Shown here piece after piece: positions 13,007 through 20,019 of a DNA stretch of 64,000 nucleotides (position 1 is its first letter; each line of letters begins with the position of its first letter). The position numbers and the translations under genes are program-made. This DNA comes from Acidithiobacillus ferridurans (GTDB lineage Bacteria > Pseudomonadota > Gammaproteobacteria > Acidithiobacillales > Acidithiobacillaceae). The notes beneath the pieces were generated by a model that was not told the DNA's origin, did not search any database, and saw only the letters and a list, made by a program, of their open reading frames with translations. The stretch is from contig NZ_AP018795.1 of assembly GCF_003966655.1 (NCBI RefSeq), positions 372,001 to 436,000 of the forward strand, in the 5' to 3' direction.

Positions 13007-13050
13007 GAATATGACATTATTAATAAGTTTTAACAATAAAATTGTGACAA
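13007..13050 (-). promoter_or_regulatory. Degenerate PHO-box-like array
   Basis: Read on the reverse strand the four contiguous 11-mers are TTGTCACAATT, TTATTGTTAAA, ACTTATTAATA and ATGTCATATTC. The outer two match the PHO half-site (TGTCA), 33 bp apart; the inner two have decayed. Its direction points to the outer-membrane remnant at 12896. It is weaker than the three arrays at 17.2-18.9 kb. Confidence 0.35.
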
Positions 13051-13663: not shown

Positions 13664-15235
13664 TCAGATGCGGAAACCTTGGGGCCGCTGATCCCAGTCA
13701 AAAGCCCCCATCAGGTCATACGAGTCGGCGTCGCGTTGGTTGAGGGGTTGCAGACCGAAACGGGTTTCGATGAATTTGAGGATGCTCGCCGTACTGGCGA
13801 GGTGGTGATCCACCAACCCTTGCCGCGCCCAGGGGCTGATGAGCAGGGCCGGAATACGGGTGCCAAATCCATAGTCGTCCACCACTTTAGGCGGCAGCGA
13901 ATCCCAAAAGCCACCACCTTCGTCATAGGTAATGAAGATGGCGGTTTTGTCCCAGGCCGGACCATCCGCAGCGGCGCGCACCAGTTGCTCCACCCATTCC
14001 ATACCGTAGGCGGGTGCGCAGTCAGCCGGGTGTTCGTCATGGGCGGCACTGGCCCTGACAAAGGAAACACCGGGCAGCTTGCCGGCATGGGCGTCGGCGA
14101 GAAAGTCTTCGCTATCGCGCATGTGACCGTTCTTCACATATTCTGGCCAGCGCGGGTAATACTGGAAGGGATTATGGTGGGCCACATACAACTGACCCGT
14201 ATCGATCACCGCCGAGCCGTCGCCGGGACCAAACGCGGTCTTGAGCGCCCATGGCTTCACCCGGTCCCAATTTTCGTTATACCAGGCCCAGGACACTCTG
14301 GCGCCATCCAGACGGTCACCGATATTGTCGTAGGTCTGCGCCTCCGGCGGCGGAGATATCTTCAGCGCCTTCACGGCATCCGCGTTGGTCGGTCCCTGCA
14401 CCGGCGGCAGGTCGTTGACCAGCACTTTTTGGTGGTCATAGGGCAGATCAAAGAAACGGTGCTCCAGACCCGCTTCCTTCGGATCGAAGGGCGCACAGAC
14501 CTCCCTGGGTGCGTGGGGATGGATACAGGAACGGGCGGCCGCCAGATAAAGCGCATTACCGGTGCTGCCGCCGCTCATAGCCTGAAAGAAATGATCGAAG
14601 AGCGTGTACTGGTGCGCCACCTGATGATAGAAGGGCAAATCTTCGCCAGTATAGTAGCCCAGCACCGGGCCGCTGGGGCGGGCCAGATCGAAGGCGATCT
14701 GCTCGGGGCTCATTTTCCGGAATTCGTCCCGCGACAAAAGGGTTTTGCTGCCACCCGCCAGAGCCACGAAGCGATCCATTTTGCCGTTGTGCACTTCCGC
14801 CATCATACGAAAAAAGCGATGCGCAGGATCCCAATGCACATTGCCCCTGACCGGAATATAGGGCGCCATGTGAAAAGGCTGGTTCGGCAATTGCACATTC
14901 TGAAAACCCGGAATTTCCGCAGGTAACGGAAGATTATCATAAGCGATGCCCGCGGGGTTTTTCTGTAAGCCGAGGAAACGCGGATCCAACTGTCCCTGCC
15001 CATCCAGCAGGTTGACGACCTGCTGTCCGTTTTTCGGCTGGAAAGTACCGAAGTAATGATCGAAACTGCGATTTTCCTGAAAGATCACCACCACATGCTC
15101 GATCTTCTGACGCAGGAGATGCTCTCCGCTGACGCCTGCCGCACGTGCCACCCCCAGCAGATGCGGAGCAGCGACAACTGCACCACTCCCCAGCCCCAGC
15201 CGCTTCAAAAACTGCCGGCGATTCTGTCGCTCCAT
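13664..15235 (-). CDS. Tat-exported phosphoesterase (acid phosphatase/phospholipase C family)
   Basis: The 523-residue protein belongs to the PF04185-type phosphoesterases that include AcpA-like acid phosphatases and non-haemolytic phospholipases C. A twin-arginine signal (RRQFLKRLGLGSG) begins near residue 6, so it is folded before export to the periplasm. The metal/nucleophile segment HVVVIFQENRSFDHYFGTF follows near residue 45, and later ITYDEGGGFWDSLPP and FGTRIPALLISPWA match the C-terminal metal site. ATG 15235 has CAGGAG 8 nt upstream. It lies 60 nt downstream of tonB in the exbB-exbD-tonB direction, so it is probably the last gene of a PHO-box-controlled operon. Phosphate release from organic esters is the likely job; phospholipase activity cannot be ruled out. 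Confidence 0.85.
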   Translation of the reverse strand: MERQNRRQFLKRLGLGSGAVVAAPHLLGVARAAGVSGEHLLRQKIEHVVVIFQENRSFDHYFGTFQPKNGQQVVNLLDGQGQLDPRFLGLQKNPAGIAYDNLPLPAEIPGFQNVQLPNQPFHMAPYIPVRGNVHWDPAHRFFRMMAEVHNGKMDRFVALAGGSKTLLSRDEFRKMSPEQIAFDLARPSGPVLGYYTGEDLPFYHQVAHQYTLFDHFFQAMSGGSTGNALYLAAARSCIHPHAPREVCAPFDPKEAGLEHRFFDLPYDHQKVLVNDLPPVQGPTNADAVKALKISPPPEAQTYDNIGDRLDGARVSWAWYNENWDRVKPWALKTAFGPGDGSAVIDTGQLYVAHHNPFQYYPRWPEYVKNGHMRDSEDFLADAHAGKLPGVSFVRASAAHDEHPADCAPAYGMEWVEQLVRAAADGPAWDKTAIFITYDEGGGFWDSLPPKVVDDYGFGTRIPALLISPWARQGLVDHHLASTASILKFIETRFGLQPLNQRDADSYDLMGAFDWDQRPQGFRI

Positions 15236-15295
15236 GAAAAAAACTCCTGATTCCATTAATGATTGGCAAGTATCCGCCCATATAGCCGACGGATA

Positions 15296-16015
15296 CTAGG
15301 AAGCGCGTCCTGACAAATGCACCTCTACCGTAAAATTGGTGGCATGCTTCGGCATATCTTTGGAGAAGGGCGGGTACTGTCCTTCTTTCACTGACTTCAA
15401 TGCCGCCCTATCGATGGGCCCAGCCCCGCTGGATCGGGAAATTTTCGCCCACTGCAATCGACCCGAAGGCGCAAGCCGGAATGTGATGATCGCGGTGCCG
15501 CTTAAATGCATCAGGCGGATCGCTTCGGGCACATGGGCATCCGCCTGAACCTGGGCCCGCACCAGGGCTGCGTATTCGGCTAGCGCTGCCTGACGTGCGG
15601 CCATGCTGGGCGCGGGCGGCGGCGGTGGCGGTGGGACCACCGGCGGCCTAGGCGGTGCCACCGGTGCGAGAGGCAACGGTGTTTTGGCTATCAGCGGTTT
15701 GGGCACAGGCACTTGATGCACCACTGGTTTCGGCAACGGAACGGGACGCGGCAGCGGTTTGGGATGCACCATCGGCTTTGGCGGCGGAGGTACCGGCTTC
15801 GGCTTCGGCTTCGGCGGAACCGGCTGTATCATGTGGATTGCAATAATTTTCTTTACGACCGGCTGGGGGGGTGGCGTATTACTTCCCACCCAGATCAATC
15901 CGCCCACCAGCAACGCCTCCAATACCGCGCCGACCAACAATGCCCGGCCAAAATGCTCTTTATTCGTATTTAGTGGCGGCGGCGTCCAGGATGGATTACC
16001 AACGATTGTATTCAC
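15296..16015 (-). CDS. tonB: TonB energy-transducing protein
   Basis: TonB transmits proton-motive force from ExbB/ExbD to outer-membrane receptors. The product (239 residues from GTG 16015, with AAGGAAGG upstream) has a cytoplasmic start, one transmembrane helix (ALLVGAVLEALLVGGLIWVG), a long Pro/Lys/Val-rich periplasm-spanning region with PKPKPKPVPPPPKP-type repeats, and a C-terminal TonB domain (VPEAIRLMHLSGTAIITFRLAPSGRL...QYPPFSKDMP). It follows exbD by 21 nt. No intact TonB-dependent receptor is present in the window. Confidence 0.9.
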   Translation of the reverse strand: MNTIVGNPSWTPPPLNTNKEHFGRALLVGAVLEALLVGGLIWVGSNTPPPQPVVKKIIAIHMIQPVPPKPKPKPVPPPPKPMVHPKPLPRPVPLPKPVVHQVPVPKPLIAKTPLPLAPVAPPRPPVVPPPPPPPAPSMAARQAALAEYAALVRAQVQADAHVPEAIRLMHLSGTAIITFRLAPSGRLQWAKISRSSGAGPIDRAALKSVKEGQYPPFSKDMPKHATNFTVEVHLSGRAS

Positions 16016-16036
16016 CAATTACCTTCCTTGTTTTTC

Positions 16037-16438
16037 CTAACCACGCGCTTTCGCGGCAATCCCGATATCACTCACTCCTGCCTTCTGGCAGCGATCCATC
16101 ACATGGACGAAATCCTGAAAAGGCACGCCCTTATCGGCAGCGATGGTGATCTGGGTCTTCGCAGGGTTACCATCACCGGCGAGCATTTTCTGCAGGCCGT
16201 CGAGATCATAGTGGTGACCCTTCACATCCACCGATCCATCCTTATCGATATTGATGGTGTAGTGCGGATGCGGAAGCTGCTGCGCCTGGCTGGACCTGGG
16301 CAACTGCAGACTCAGCCCTTTGTCGGGGATCATTTGCAGCGTGATCATGATAAAAAACACCAGCAGGAAGAGCATAATGTCGATCATGGGGATGATCTCC
16401 ACCCGGCCCTTCTTCTGCTCGAAATAACGGCGCTCCAT
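16037..16438 (-). CDS. exbD: Biopolymer transport protein ExbD
   Basis: ExbD is the small inner-membrane partner of ExbB in the proton-driven motor for TonB. The 133-residue protein has one N-terminal transmembrane helix with the conserved aspartate (EIIPMIDIMLFLLVFFIM), followed by a periplasmic domain (LQLPRSS...ITIAADKGVPFQDFVHVMDRCQKAGV). Its ATG overlaps the exbB stop by one base (TGATG). Confidence 0.93.
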   Translation of the reverse strand: MERRYFEQKKGRVEIIPMIDIMLFLLVFFIMITLQMIPDKGLSLQLPRSSQAQQLPHPHYTINIDKDGSVDVKGHHYDLDGLQKMLAGDGNPAKTQITIAADKGVPFQDFVHVMDRCQKAGVSDIGIAAKARG

Positions 16439-17121
16439 CAACTGGCCCTCGCCACAGACAACATTTCACTGCGTTGCTGCTCACCGTTGTCCGGCGTGAT
16501 CATGGGTTGACCGTCCATCCGATTGATCAGCATGGTCTTTACGGAATCCAGTTGCAGGAGAATCTGCCGCACCTGGTTATTGAAGGCATTGAAGGCCATC
16601 AGACCGAGCATGGCGATAAACAGGCCAGTTGCCGTGGCGACCAGCGCGTCAGCCACACCGCCGGTGACCGCCGTAGGCGCGTGTCCCGGAGTGGCCAGCA
16701 CCGAAAAAGCGTGGAACATACCGATAATCGTGCCGAACAAACCCAGCAGCGGCGCCAAGGTGATGATAGTGTCCAGCAACCACAGACGGCGATCCAGTTG
16801 CGGCGCCAACACCAGCACACTTTCTTCAAGACGGCTGGCAAGGCCTTCGCCTTTCACCTGCCCATGATGGGAGGCAGCCATACGCAGCAACGAGGCTTCG
16901 GGCAGATCACTCGCCCCATCAGCCATCTGATTCAGCGTGTCACGATCCAGGCGACCATGGCTGCCCAGTTCATGTACAAAGATCAGCCCACGCAGGATGG
17001 TGCGCCGCAAAAACCAGAACCGGTCCACGATAACGGACAATTCGACCAATAACAGCGCGCCAAGCACGTAGAGAACGCCATCTGAATAATTGGCGAGGTG
17101 AATGAGATATTGCAGGTTCAT
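16438..17121 (-). CDS. exbB: Biopolymer transport protein ExbB (MotA/TolQ family)
   Basis: ExbB forms the pentameric channel scaffold of the TonB motor. The 227-residue protein has a first transmembrane helix (VLYVLGALLLVELSVIVDRFWFL), a cytoplasmic loop, and the two conserved C-terminal helices with TIITLAPLLGLFGTIIGMFHAF and VADALVATATGLFIAMLGLMAFN. ATG 17121 was chosen because it lies behind GAGGGAG. That site can be closed by a hairpin with the first transcribed bases, and transcription probably starts from the PHO-box promoter at 17150-17194. It is the first gene of exbB-exbD-tonB-phosphoesterase. Confidence 0.93.
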   Translation of the reverse strand: MNLQYLIHLANYSDGVLYVLGALLLVELSVIVDRFWFLRRTILRGLIFVHELGSHGRLDRDTLNQMADGASDLPEASLLRMAASHHGQVKGEGLASRLEESVLVLAPQLDRRLWLLDTIITLAPLLGLFGTIIGMFHAFSVLATPGHAPTAVTGGVADALVATATGLFIAMLGLMAFNAFNNQVRQILLQLDSVKTMLINRMDGQPMITPDNGEQQRSEMLSVARAS

Positions 17122-17149: not shown

Positions 17150-17194
17150 ACCATAGCAAATCAATGTGACAGTTTTATGAACCTGTTATGACAA
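17150..17194 (-). promoter_or_regulatory. PHO-box promoter of the exbB operon
   Basis: Reverse-strand 11-mers TTGTCATAACA, GGTTCATAAAA and CTGTCACATTG run contiguously (17194-17162), then ATTTGC and a TATGGT -10 hexamer (17155-17150). The 11-bp period and TGTCA/TTCAT half-sites match the known PHO box bound by PhoB-type regulators, with the box replacing a -35 element. It overlaps the 3' end of the regulator gene. Confidence 0.7.
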
Positions 17195-17947
17195 ATTTAC
17201 ATCAATGGCGTTTTTCGGCGGCAAACTCAGGCGATACCCAAACCCATGTACCGTTTCCAGCCACTCCGCAGCGCCAGCCTTTTCCAGACCTTTGCGCAAA
17301 CGATGCACCTGAGCCGCCACCGAATTTTCCTGGATGAGGCTGCGGCCGTCCGTCAATACATTGGCAATTTCTTGGGGCGAGAAAGTCCGATCCGGGTGCA
17401 ATGCCAAATAGTGCAGAAACCGGAAAAGTCGTCGACTCAGACGTATTTCTTCCCCATTCACCCATACCCGACAGCTTCCCGGATTGACCTGGATCAGCGA
17501 CCCCCGCTCTACCGGGAGGCATTTCCAGTGCTGGTTTTTTTTCAGCAGCGCCGATGCCTGCGCCAGCAACAACGTCTCGCTACACGGGGTCGATACATAC
17601 GCGCTCGCTCCAGCATCCAGAGCGGACATGGCGTTTGCGTCATCATCCACCCCGATAGCCAGCACCGGCAAACCGGCACAAACCGGGTAAGCGCTTAATT
17701 CCATGAGCCACGGCGCAAATCGGGCAGACCAGTCCTGCAGAATCAGCAGGGCCGGGTGCCATCCCGTAACAAGCTGAAAGGCGTCATTCATTGCGCTCGT
17801 CGTGCGCAGGAAGGCGCCCGATCCCTGCAGGCGGAATATAAGCCCACTCGGCGGCGCCGTTTCTGCCAGCAGCAGAATGCGTGCCTGATAAAGCGGATCC
17901 ATTTCCACATTGTTATTCGTTGTGCTGCCTTGCGGTATGGCCATCAT
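17186..17947 (-). CDS. OmpR/PhoB-type winged-helix regulator with degenerate receiver
   Basis: The 253-residue protein has a receiver-like N-terminus (about 22-135) and a C-terminal OmpR/PhoB winged helix (about 145-240: IRLSRRLFRFLHYLALHPDRTFSPQEIANVL, QENSVAAQVHRLRKGLE, VHGFGYRLS). In the receiver, the usual acidic pair is replaced by AET near residue 28. The expected phospho-acceptor region reads PALLILQDW, and the conserved lysine of the K-P motif is missing (YVSTPCSE). It is therefore likely to be phosphorylation-independent or a pseudo-receiver. No histidine kinase gene is adjacent. ATG 17947 follows GGCAGGAAACC. Four contiguous 11-bp PHO-like repeats lie at its own promoter, so autoregulation is likely, and the same motif precedes exbB, which starts 64 nt after its stop. 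Confidence 0.8.
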   Translation of the reverse strand: MMAIPQGSTTNNNVEMDPLYQARILLLAETAPPSGLIFRLQGSGAFLRTTSAMNDAFQLVTGWHPALLILQDWSARFAPWLMELSAYPVCAGLPVLAIGVDDDANAMSALDAGASAYVSTPCSETLLLAQASALLKKNQHWKCLPVERGSLIQVNPGSCRVWVNGEEIRLSRRLFRFLHYLALHPDRTFSPQEIANVLTDGRSLIQENSVAAQVHRLRKGLEKAGAAEWLETVHGFGYRLSLPPKNAIDVNLS

Positions 17948-17976
17948 GGTTTCCTGCCGAAACTGGACCTTATGAC

Positions 17977-18032
17977 AGGATATACCCACAATATGACAGT
18001 TTTATGAAACTACAATGACAATTTTATGACAA
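17977..18032 (-). promoter_or_regulatory. PHO-box promoter of the regulator gene
   Basis: Reverse-strand 11-mers TTGTCATAAAA, TTGTCATTGTA, GTTTCATAAAA and CTGTCATATTG are contiguous (18032-17989), followed by TGGGTA and TATCCT as -10 (17982-17977). Half-site period, final CTGTCAYATTG and the 6-nt gap equal those of the exbB promoter. The rest of the gap to 18124 holds only a GGAGACC/GGTCTCC stem at 18072-18090 without a T-run. Confidence 0.7.
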
Positions 18033-18123
18033 AAACCCAGCGCCATACGTACTGCAACACACAGGATTTGCGGAGACCGCAGTGGTCTCCGGCAACTCCA
18101 GCCAGGCATGGAAGATCAGTGAA

Positions 18124-18645
18124 TTACTGAAGCGGGATGGTTTGCTGTTGCGGCTGCTGTGGCTGTTGCGGCGCCGCTGGTTGACTGCTGGTCTGAGGCA
18201 ATACCACCCCTGCCGGGGCCTGAGGACTGGCGGTCATGCCCAGCCGTTGCGAAAGCAGCTTCTGGAACTGCAAAGATAGTGGCTTGTCGCCAAAAGTCCC
18301 GATACGGATGTTGACCTTGGTAACATCCGTGGCCATGGAAGTCAGCGTTACCTTGGCGGTCTGGCCGTCCGTGGTGGTACCCTCGATCAGATACTCGGAC
18401 GGACTCTTGCGGATTTCGCCGTTATAGTGGATGCTCATTTCTCCGAATGCCGCCTTCGACGCTGCACTGACCCGCGTCACCGACGTCGGATAGTAGGCGT
18501 AGAAATTGGCGACCCCGCCATTTTCCACATAGGCCACGGCCCCACCACCAGCCCCGGCCGCGAGAAGCGCCACGCAACCACCAAGCGGCAGAGCTGCTAC
18601 CACACCCACTACCGCCAACCACGCCAACCGCCGTTGCGTCGCCAT
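18124..18645 (-). CDS. DUF3568-type lipoprotein
   Basis: The 173-residue protein has a signal peptide with lipobox LGGC (cysteine near residue 24), then a glycine-rich AAGAGGGAVAY stretch and a body (YPTSVTRVSAASKAAFGEM...VNIRIGTFGDKPLSLQFQKLLSQRL) typical for DUF3568 lipoproteins. The C-terminal 35 residues are a Gln/Pro-rich low-complexity tail. It is membrane-anchored, function unknown. A single TTGTCAC half-site lies about 30 nt upstream, not enough to claim PHO control. Confidence 0.7.
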   Translation of the reverse strand: MATQRRLAWLAVVGVVAALPLGGCVALLAAGAGGGAVAYVENGGVANFYAYYPTSVTRVSAASKAAFGEMSIHYNGEIRKSPSEYLIEGTTTDGQTAKVTLTSMATDVTKVNIRIGTFGDKPLSLQFQKLLSQRLGMTASPQAPAGVVLPQTSSQPAAPQQPQQPQQQTIPLQ

Positions 18646-18832
18646 GCCAACCCCCTAGCTCCAATCCAAGAAATAGTGACAAAAACCCGGCAGAACCGGG
18701 CTTCTTCGCTATTGTCTGAAATCCTATCACAGCTCACCCATGAACATCCACACCGACCAGCCAGTCTCCATTCCGCGCCTTCATGGGTTCCAGAGACAGG
18801 TTTATATCGAACGCGGAAGACAAAGGTGCATA

Positions 18833-18888
18833 TTGTCACCAAAAAGTCACCTCAGTGACGCATTGCTGTCACATTGGACTGCTAATAT
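18833..18888 (+). promoter_or_regulatory. PHO-box promoter in front of a truncated secreted-protein gene
   Basis: Contiguous 11-mers TTGTCACCAAA, AAGTCACCTCA, GTGACGCATTG and CTGTCACATTG (18833-18876) are followed by GACTGC and a TAATAT -10 (18883-18888). The architecture is the same as at the regulator and exbB promoters. The gene start at 18939 follows with a TTAGGAGG ribosome site. A further TTGTCACC overlaps the -10. Confidence 0.7.
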
Positions 18889-18938: not shown

Positions 18939-19070
18939 ATGAACACCATAAACCAAGGCCCGGCACACCCGCTGGATCGGTTATCTGCCTATAGCGGAAC
19001 GATCTTTTTGGTCAGCGGGACCTGCGCCGTTGCAAGGCCGTCCTGGGCGCAAGGCTCTGCCCTCCGCGCG
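18939..19070 (+). pseudogene. Signal-peptide remnant of a secreted, probably TonB-dependent receptor gene
   Basis: ATG 18939 follows TTAGGAGG and encodes a long signal peptide (SAYSGTIFLVSGTCAVARPSWAQGSA) of the kind seen on TonB-dependent receptors. After the predicted cleavage site near WAQG the sequence loses any family resemblance, although the frame stays open to 19310. The intact PHO-box promoter and ribosome site show that a regulated envelope protein was once made here. Identity as a receptor is inferred from the promoter shared with exbB-exbD-tonB. Confidence 0.45.
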
Positions 19071-19243
19071 TCGCTTTGGCGCCGCCCCCTTCTGATATTT
19101 TCAGAACCTGCATCAAAGACCGGATATAAGGCAGCAACCAGACCTCAACATGTCAGAAGTCGAAAACCATCTTACGAACATGGAGGCATCCATATAAGCG
19201 TTTTCAAATCGTCACCAAGGATATCACTAAGTTGCGAGATTAA

Positions 19244-19384: not shown

Positions 19385-19606
19385 ATGCCGGAAACCACCT
19401 TCACCGAATTACGCAACCACGCCAAGACCTGGTTCGATCTGGTCGAGAGCGGACAGACGGTGCGCGTATTGCGCAACGGCAAACTCATCGCCGAAATTCA
19501 CCCCATCCCGGCGCAACTGCCTTCGTGGAAGCAGCGTCCGGCGCGCCCACTGGCCATCGGTGGCAAGGAGATCAGCCGGCTCATCCTCGACGAGCGCGGA
19601 GACTGA
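19385..19606 (+). CDS. Type II antitoxin, Phd/YefM family
   Basis: The 73-residue protein begins TTFTELRNHAKTWFDLVESGQTVRVLRNGKLIAEIHPI, the DNA-binding and dimerisation part of Phd/YefM antitoxins. The C-terminal segment (PLAIGGKEISRLILDERGD) is the probable toxin-binding tail. Its stop overlaps the start of the PIN toxin gene by one base (TGATG), so the pair is translationally coupled. ACGGGAG precedes the ATG. Confidence 0.85.
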   Translation: MPETTFTELRNHAKTWFDLVESGQTVRVLRNGKLIAEIHPIPAQLPSWKQRPARPLAIGGKEISRLILDERGD

Positions 19607-20019
19607 TGCGCGTCTATTTCGACTCGTCGGCCTTTGCCAAGCGCTACATCGACGCAACCGGCACTGCTGACGTCCTGGCGTGGTGCGAACGGGCCAGCGA
19701 ACTGGCACTGTCGGTCATCGCCGTGCCTGAACTGATCTCCGCCTTCTGCCGTCTGCAACGGGAAGGACGCCTGACGGAGGCGCAATACCAGATCATCAAG
19801 CGCGCCCTTATGCTCGACATCGCCGATGCGCTGATCTGCGATACCACTCCCCAGGTCCTCCAGCACGCCGTCAAAGCCTTGGAAAACCACACGCTGCGCG
19901 GCATGGACGCCATCCACCTGGGCGCCGCCCTCGCCTGCACCGCCGAAGTGTTCATCTCGGCCGATGCCCGCCAATGTCGCGCCGCCGAGGCCTTCGGTCT
20001 GCAGGTGGTATCGCTATGA
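19606..20019 (+). CDS. PIN-domain ribonuclease toxin (VapC-like)
   Basis: The 137-residue protein has the PIN acidic residues in order: YFDSSAFAKRY (D6), VPELISA (E), LRGMDAIHLGAAL (D) and FISADARQ (D). VapC-type toxins cleave tRNA or rRNA when not held by the antitoxin. The start ATG overlaps the antitoxin stop; the frame is open upstream but that part is the antitoxin in another frame. A third gene follows with a 4-nt overlap. Confidence 0.87.
   Translation: MRVYFDSSAFAKRYIDATGTADVLAWCERASELALSVIAVPELISAFCRLQREGRLTEAQYQIIKRALMLDIADALICDTTPQVLQHAVKALENHTLRGMDAIHLGAALACTAEVFISADARQCRAAEAFGLQVVSL

Follow-up and report, generated by a model that had tools for sequence, protein, structure and literature searches.

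The window analysed here, a 64,000-nt stretch of the Acidithiobacillus ferridurans genome, carries an exbB-exbD-tonB gene set, a regulatory gene and a decayed gene, with a tandem array of 11-nt repeats at each of three promoters. The features are as follows, with array units listed in the direction of transcription.

13664-15256, minus strand: phosphoesterase of the acid phosphatase/phospholipase C type (Pfam PF04185; TIGR03397 and TIGR03396 below cut-off)
15296-16018, minus strand: tonB (Pfam PF03544)
16037-16441, minus strand: exbD (Pfam PF02472)
16438-17121, minus strand: exbB, MotA/TolQ/ExbB family (Pfam PF01618; start ATG at 17121, as in relatives)
17150-17155, minus strand: predicted exbB -10, TATGGT, 6 nt past the last repeat
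17162-17205, minus strand: candidate exbB Pho-box array of four 11-mers, from sequence and E. coli matrix and conserved across the genus; units 17205-17195 (degenerate), 17194-17184, 17183-17173 and 17172-17162, spacer 17161-17156
17186-17947, minus strand: orphan PhoB-like regulator with a degenerate receiver (PF00486 only; likely start ATG at 17947)
17977-17982, minus strand: predicted -10 of the orphan-regulator promoter, TATCCT, 6 nt past the last repeat
17989-18032, minus strand: candidate orphan-regulator Pho-box array of four 11-mers, the top site of the window (E. coli matrix score 36.1); units 18032-18022, 18021-18011, 18010-18000 and 17999-17989, spacer 17988-17983
18833-18876, plus strand: third candidate Pho-box array of four 11-mers, the third-best distinct array of the window (score 22.2); units 18833-18843, 18844-18854, 18855-18865 and 18866-18876, spacer 18877-18882
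18883-18888, plus strand: predicted -10 of the third promoter, TAATAT, 6 nt past the last repeat
18940-19100 (3´ limit approximate), plus strand: what probably remains of the 5´ part of a second, decayed orphan-regulator gene (the earlier note's "truncated gene")

The phosphoesterase gene follows tonB on the same strand and would thus belong to the exbB-exbD-tonB operon. Also present are a DUF3568 lipoprotein-like gene upstream of the regulator array (18124-18645, minus strand) and a toxin-antitoxin-like pair, recognized by eye from the translation as a Phd/YefM-like antitoxin followed by a PIN-domain VapC-like toxin (19385-20019, plus strand).

Read from the sequence in the direction of transcription, the exbB promoter is TTGATGTAAAT-TTGTCATAACA-GGTTCATAAAA-CTGTCACATTG, spacer ATTTGC, -10 TATGGT (minus strand); the regulator promoter is TTGTCATAAAA-TTGTCATTGTA-GTTTCATAAAA-CTGTCATATTG, spacer TGGGTA, -10 TATCCT (minus strand); and the third promoter is TTGTCACCAAA-AAGTCACCTCA-GTGACGCATTG-CTGTCACATTG, spacer GACTGC, -10 TAATAT (plus strand). 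All three thus consist of contiguous 11-bp direct repeats with the core TGTCAY, and the statement in the earlier note that each ends in CTGTCAYATTG, followed by exactly 6 nt and then by TATGGT, TATCCT or TAATAT, held base by base. The two or three further contiguous 11-mers that it placed upstream are likewise there, though it missed the degenerate outermost unit at exbB. This unit is kept in most of the aligned relatives, so all three window arrays can be read as four units. Arrays of the third-promoter type stand before orphan-regulator genes in relatives. A block within the third array, CACCTCAGTGACRCA at 18844-18860, occurs again at G000:C1:874235-874251, and the window copy forms the inverted repeat GTCAC-CTCA-GTGAC. 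We considered whether this inverted repeat marks a separate regulator for the third array, which seems less likely. Copies of the block occur in part of the genus, where they lie within arrays close to orphan-regulator genes, and no other genus of the family has it; given this patchiness and its position within arrays in the examined copies, it may instead be duplicated promoter DNA.

The arrays were scored with a unit matrix whose training set was 18 individual 11-mer units taken from the six E. coli promoters of phoB, phoA, pstS, phoH, ugpB and phoE, with nothing taken from this genome. Across both strands of the 64 kb, the three arrays were the best four-unit sites, with scores of 36.1, 25.5 and 22.2, against a maximum of 13.3 and a mean of 3.8 in 100 dinucleotide shuffles scored with the same matrix. 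Genome-wide scanning was done by pattern searches together with the stretches around the matches. A three-unit pattern with two mismatches allowed matched 8-18 times in each of 17 genomes from the genus (this one and 16 others), and the reversed control pattern gave no match in 15 of these, two in one and six in another. With the -10 added, the pattern was present in all 29 family genomes, with no control matches. The equally good arrays in random places that the earlier note had named as grounds for doubt thus did not turn up in the shuffles, and the reversed controls were almost empty. Although short AT-rich repeats are frequent in intergenic DNA, a chance or compositional artefact without function is excluded by the shuffles, the reversed controls, and the register shifts and genus-wide conservation described below, and we give it practically no credence. 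Separately, a fourth, weaker array, TTGTCACAATT-TTATTGTTAAA-ACTTATTAATA-ATGTCATATTC, lies on the minus strand at 13007-13050 with a score of 14.6, just over the shuffle maximum given above; TAnnnT is missing at spacing 6, and no gene clearly follows the array.

Arrays from the genus were gathered without any information downstream of the last repeat, and 37 were kept at a mutual identity below 78%; these span many gene families but are not all independent, since some are diverged orthologues. In 34 of the 37, TAnnnT begins exactly 6 nt after the last 11-mer, compared with zero to two arrays for any of the other spacings between 0 and 15, and two of the three exceptions appear to run on into more degenerate repeats. 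A G stands two bases before the -10 in 62% of the arrays, resembling an extended -10. The distal fourth unit, which was not a selection criterion, is present with at least five of six core bases in 31/37 arrays, as opposed to zero or one in shifted registers. Unit 4 is the strongest or tied in 34/37, and unit 3 is the weakest or tied among units 2-4 in 24/37; the order of strong and weak half-sites that the earlier note called identical in four-unit arrays therefore stands as a tendency and not as a strict rule. A search for -35 elements found no array with at least five matches to TTGACA at spacers of 15-19. The consensus, 11-bp period, unit order, spacer and missing -35 together support the proposal of the earlier note that one regulator, which it left unnamed, would bind in tandem in place of the -35 element.

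These properties are those of Pho boxes. Pho boxes consist of direct repeats 11 nt long, in which seven positions are conserved (CTGTCAT in E. coli; PMC4415409); PhoB-dependent promoters lack a canonical -35, for which a contact between PhoB and sigma region 4 compensates (PMC4496699), and strict spacing to the core promoter is expected of them (PMC10294691). Where two or more direct repeats with the CTGTCAT core define a Pho box, each window promoter has four contiguous ones and lacks a canonical -35, and the -10 lies 6 nt past the last repeat in 3/3, as in E. coli pstS and phoA. In the K-12 genome, the PhoB-dependent pstS promoter reads CTGTCATAAAA-CTGTCATATTC-CTTACATATAA-CTGTCACCTGT, spacer TTGTCC, -10 TATTTT: two tandem Pho boxes, that is, four contiguous 11-mers, 6 nt and a -10 with no -35. 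Its strong-strong-weak-strong order is that of the window regulator array. The differences are in the genes downstream, in the last unit, which here ends in ATTG, and in the -10, here TAnnnT and in many cases preceded by the extended -10 G. The K-12 phoA array, which ends in TTGTCACGGCC, spacer GAGACT, -10 TATAGT, shares the tandem 11-mers and the 6 nt but has three units compared with four here. Like sites also stand at phosphate genes of the same genome: an array precedes pstS-pstC (G000:C1:2803995-2804033), and in the phoB cluster pstS is preceded by a weaker site of two repeats, with TATAGT after a 6-nt spacer. By their sequence, the three window arrays read as tandem Pho boxes standing in for the -35 element. 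PhoB promoters of this kind are already known; new in detail are the fixed spacing throughout the genus, the content and reach of the predicted Pho regulon, and PhoB-like neighbours that are degenerate-receiver paralogues under Pho boxes.

Away from the window regulator, the genome encodes a single PhoB above the curated cut-off (TIGR02154), in a cluster with pst-type genes that were recognized by eye rather than by profile search, and PhoB exceeds this cut-off in 27 of 29 family genomes. The roles of the base- and sigma-contacting residues of PhoB have been described (PMC3973317). This PhoB and four others from the genus agree with E. coli PhoB at the base contacts (R201, T194, V197, R219) and at W184 and G185 in the activation loop. 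Our residue comparison also covered backbone-contact and phosphorylation positions of PhoB. The most likely binder of the arrays, from this comparison, is the genome's own PhoB.

We therefore consider it very probable that the arrays belong to sigma70 promoters without a -35 and serve as tandem Pho boxes, through which PhoB switches these promoters on at phosphate shortage. On phosphate shortage, PhoR would phosphorylate PhoB, which would bind head to tail, one monomer per 11-mer and up to four per array. By analogy with the E. coli structure, the promoter-proximal PhoB would hold sigma region 4 in place of the -35 contact; this hold would set the 6-nt distance to the TAnnnT -10, which would then open and turn the gene on. 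The targets expected to be induced in the window are exbB-exbD-tonB, probably the phosphoesterase, the orphan regulator and the decayed second regulator gene. Two observations weigh against PhoB: several downstream genes, the TonB receptors, are not annotated as phosphate genes, and the orphan regulators, present in nearly all of these genomes, retain R201 and could bind these boxes as well.

Across the genus, the genes directly downstream of arrays, counted as BLAST clusters among the loci fetched with representatives identified separately, were TonB receptors (20), orphan regulators (16), exbB (12), Opr-type porins (11), pstS (8), a second plug-domain receptor family (5) and phosphate-selective porin O/P (4), along with a few phosphoesterases and MFS transporters. 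The arrays thus probably turn on a phosphate-scavenging gene set that includes the TonB energy system. The regulon predicted here shares with the known PhoB/PhoR two-component system and its Pho regulon the presence of PhoB and the placing of pst genes, phosphatases and porins under Pho boxes; it differs in also taking in exbB, TonB receptors and degenerate-receiver PhoB-like orphans.

A 2008 study of acidithiobacilli described a like gene neighbourhood, placing TonB/ExbBD/phosphatase clusters under iron uptake, predicting Fur sites in associated clusters and proposing an iron-phosphate circuit (PMC2631029). That work could be taken to mean that the TonB system serves iron and is mainly controlled by Fur, with the arrays playing a minor part. 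However, the best Fur-like matches at the three window promoters reach 10-11 of 19 positions, compared with a median of 10 and a 95th percentile of 12 for random stretches of the window, and the search for Fur boxes at these promoters thus found none above the random level. We regard an iron circuit of this kind as very unlikely; the Pho boxes, as candidate sites, point to phosphate as a direct input to the TonB module. The passages of the 2008 study on these clusters name the local regulators PhoB-like and, unlike the present reading, do not bring in Pho boxes; by our analysis these regulators are not PhoB proper (PMC2631029).

This is seen for the window regulator, which we rejected as PhoB because of a sub-cut-off score, lost phosphorylation residues and altered contacts. 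It scored 78.5 bits against the PhoB model, for which the cut-off is 296.2. At the acidic pair, Asp, Thr and Lys of the receiver, A, E, D, G and T replace E, D, D, T and K, leaving only the Asp and one acid of the phosphorylation residues. R201 is kept, while the other contacts and the activation loop carry T194S, V197A, R219H, W184T and G185D. The structure predicted for it (mean pLDDT 73) has matches to OmpR-family structures that extend over both domains, with E values down to 8e-15, and superposes on the PhoB effector domain at 2.1 Å over 103 columns; as modelled, the protein is a receiver fold joined to an OmpR-type winged helix. The window regulator thus appears to be a degenerate-receiver paralogue that is itself under a predicted Pho box and conserved family-wide. 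Pseudo-receiver regulators of the OmpR/PhoB family such as ChxR share the OmpR-type layout and a receiver without phosphotransfer residues and may act independently of phosphorylation (PMC12632262, PMC3960148). The difference is that here one predicted Pho regulon contains several such paralogues, which in turn have Pho boxes of their own.

The decayed gene behind the third promoter is probably the remnant of another such regulator: tblastn with an intact relative gave broken pieces in two frames at 18940-19100 (sum E 1e-05). A second orphan-regulator locus lies at G000:C1:873164-876799, with arrays in front of the regulator, in the gap separating it from a TonB receptor gene, and in front of another TonB receptor gene. 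At G009:C73:4202-6637, in a relative, no strong array was found directly before the regulator, and by coordinates an array precedes the upstream MFS transporter gene; this suggests an MFS-regulator operon followed by the exbB array.

Could the arrays be bound mainly by the adjacent orphans, as autoregulation and control of neighbours, with PhoB acting only at the pst genes? Arrays do lie on the promoters of orphan regulators and their neighbours in many genomes, and orphans were found in 28/29 family genomes, though presence or absence does not discriminate between the two readings since nearly all of these genomes carry both PhoB and an orphan. Because R201 is conserved in every aligned orphan, and T194, V197, W184 and mostly G185 in one subtype, orphans may also bind the arrays. 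R219, however, is missing from all aligned orphans, and their recognition helices vary between subtypes while the arrays are constant. The exbB array is kept in three genomes (G011, G012 and G014) where the adjoining regulator is a remnant, pstS carries the same array, and the sites match the Pho boxes of E. coli, in which an orphan of this kind plays no part. Since the arrays stay the same while the orphan helices vary, and the exbB array outlives its regulator, PhoB is favoured as the common binder, and binding mainly by the orphans seems improbable.

A further, tentative idea, which we think rather doubtful, keeps PhoB and adds the orphans: dead-receiver orphans might bind four-unit Pho boxes beside or against PhoB, forming a phosphorylation-independent feedback layer that tunes phosphate-regulated TonB uptake. 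It would be a feedback layer because the orphans are themselves under predicted Pho boxes, and the window-type orphan, without the W184 and G185 activation residues, would then be an antagonist in it.

Collectively, these arrays are an unusually clean genus-wide demonstration of a Pho box to -10 spacing that is fixed to the base. The Pho regulon predicted from them takes in TonB-ExbBD, TonB receptors and phosphatases that had earlier been filed under iron uptake. The degenerate receiver of the PhoB-like neighbour corrects the identity of this protein and opens a testable question about feedback in phosphate control.
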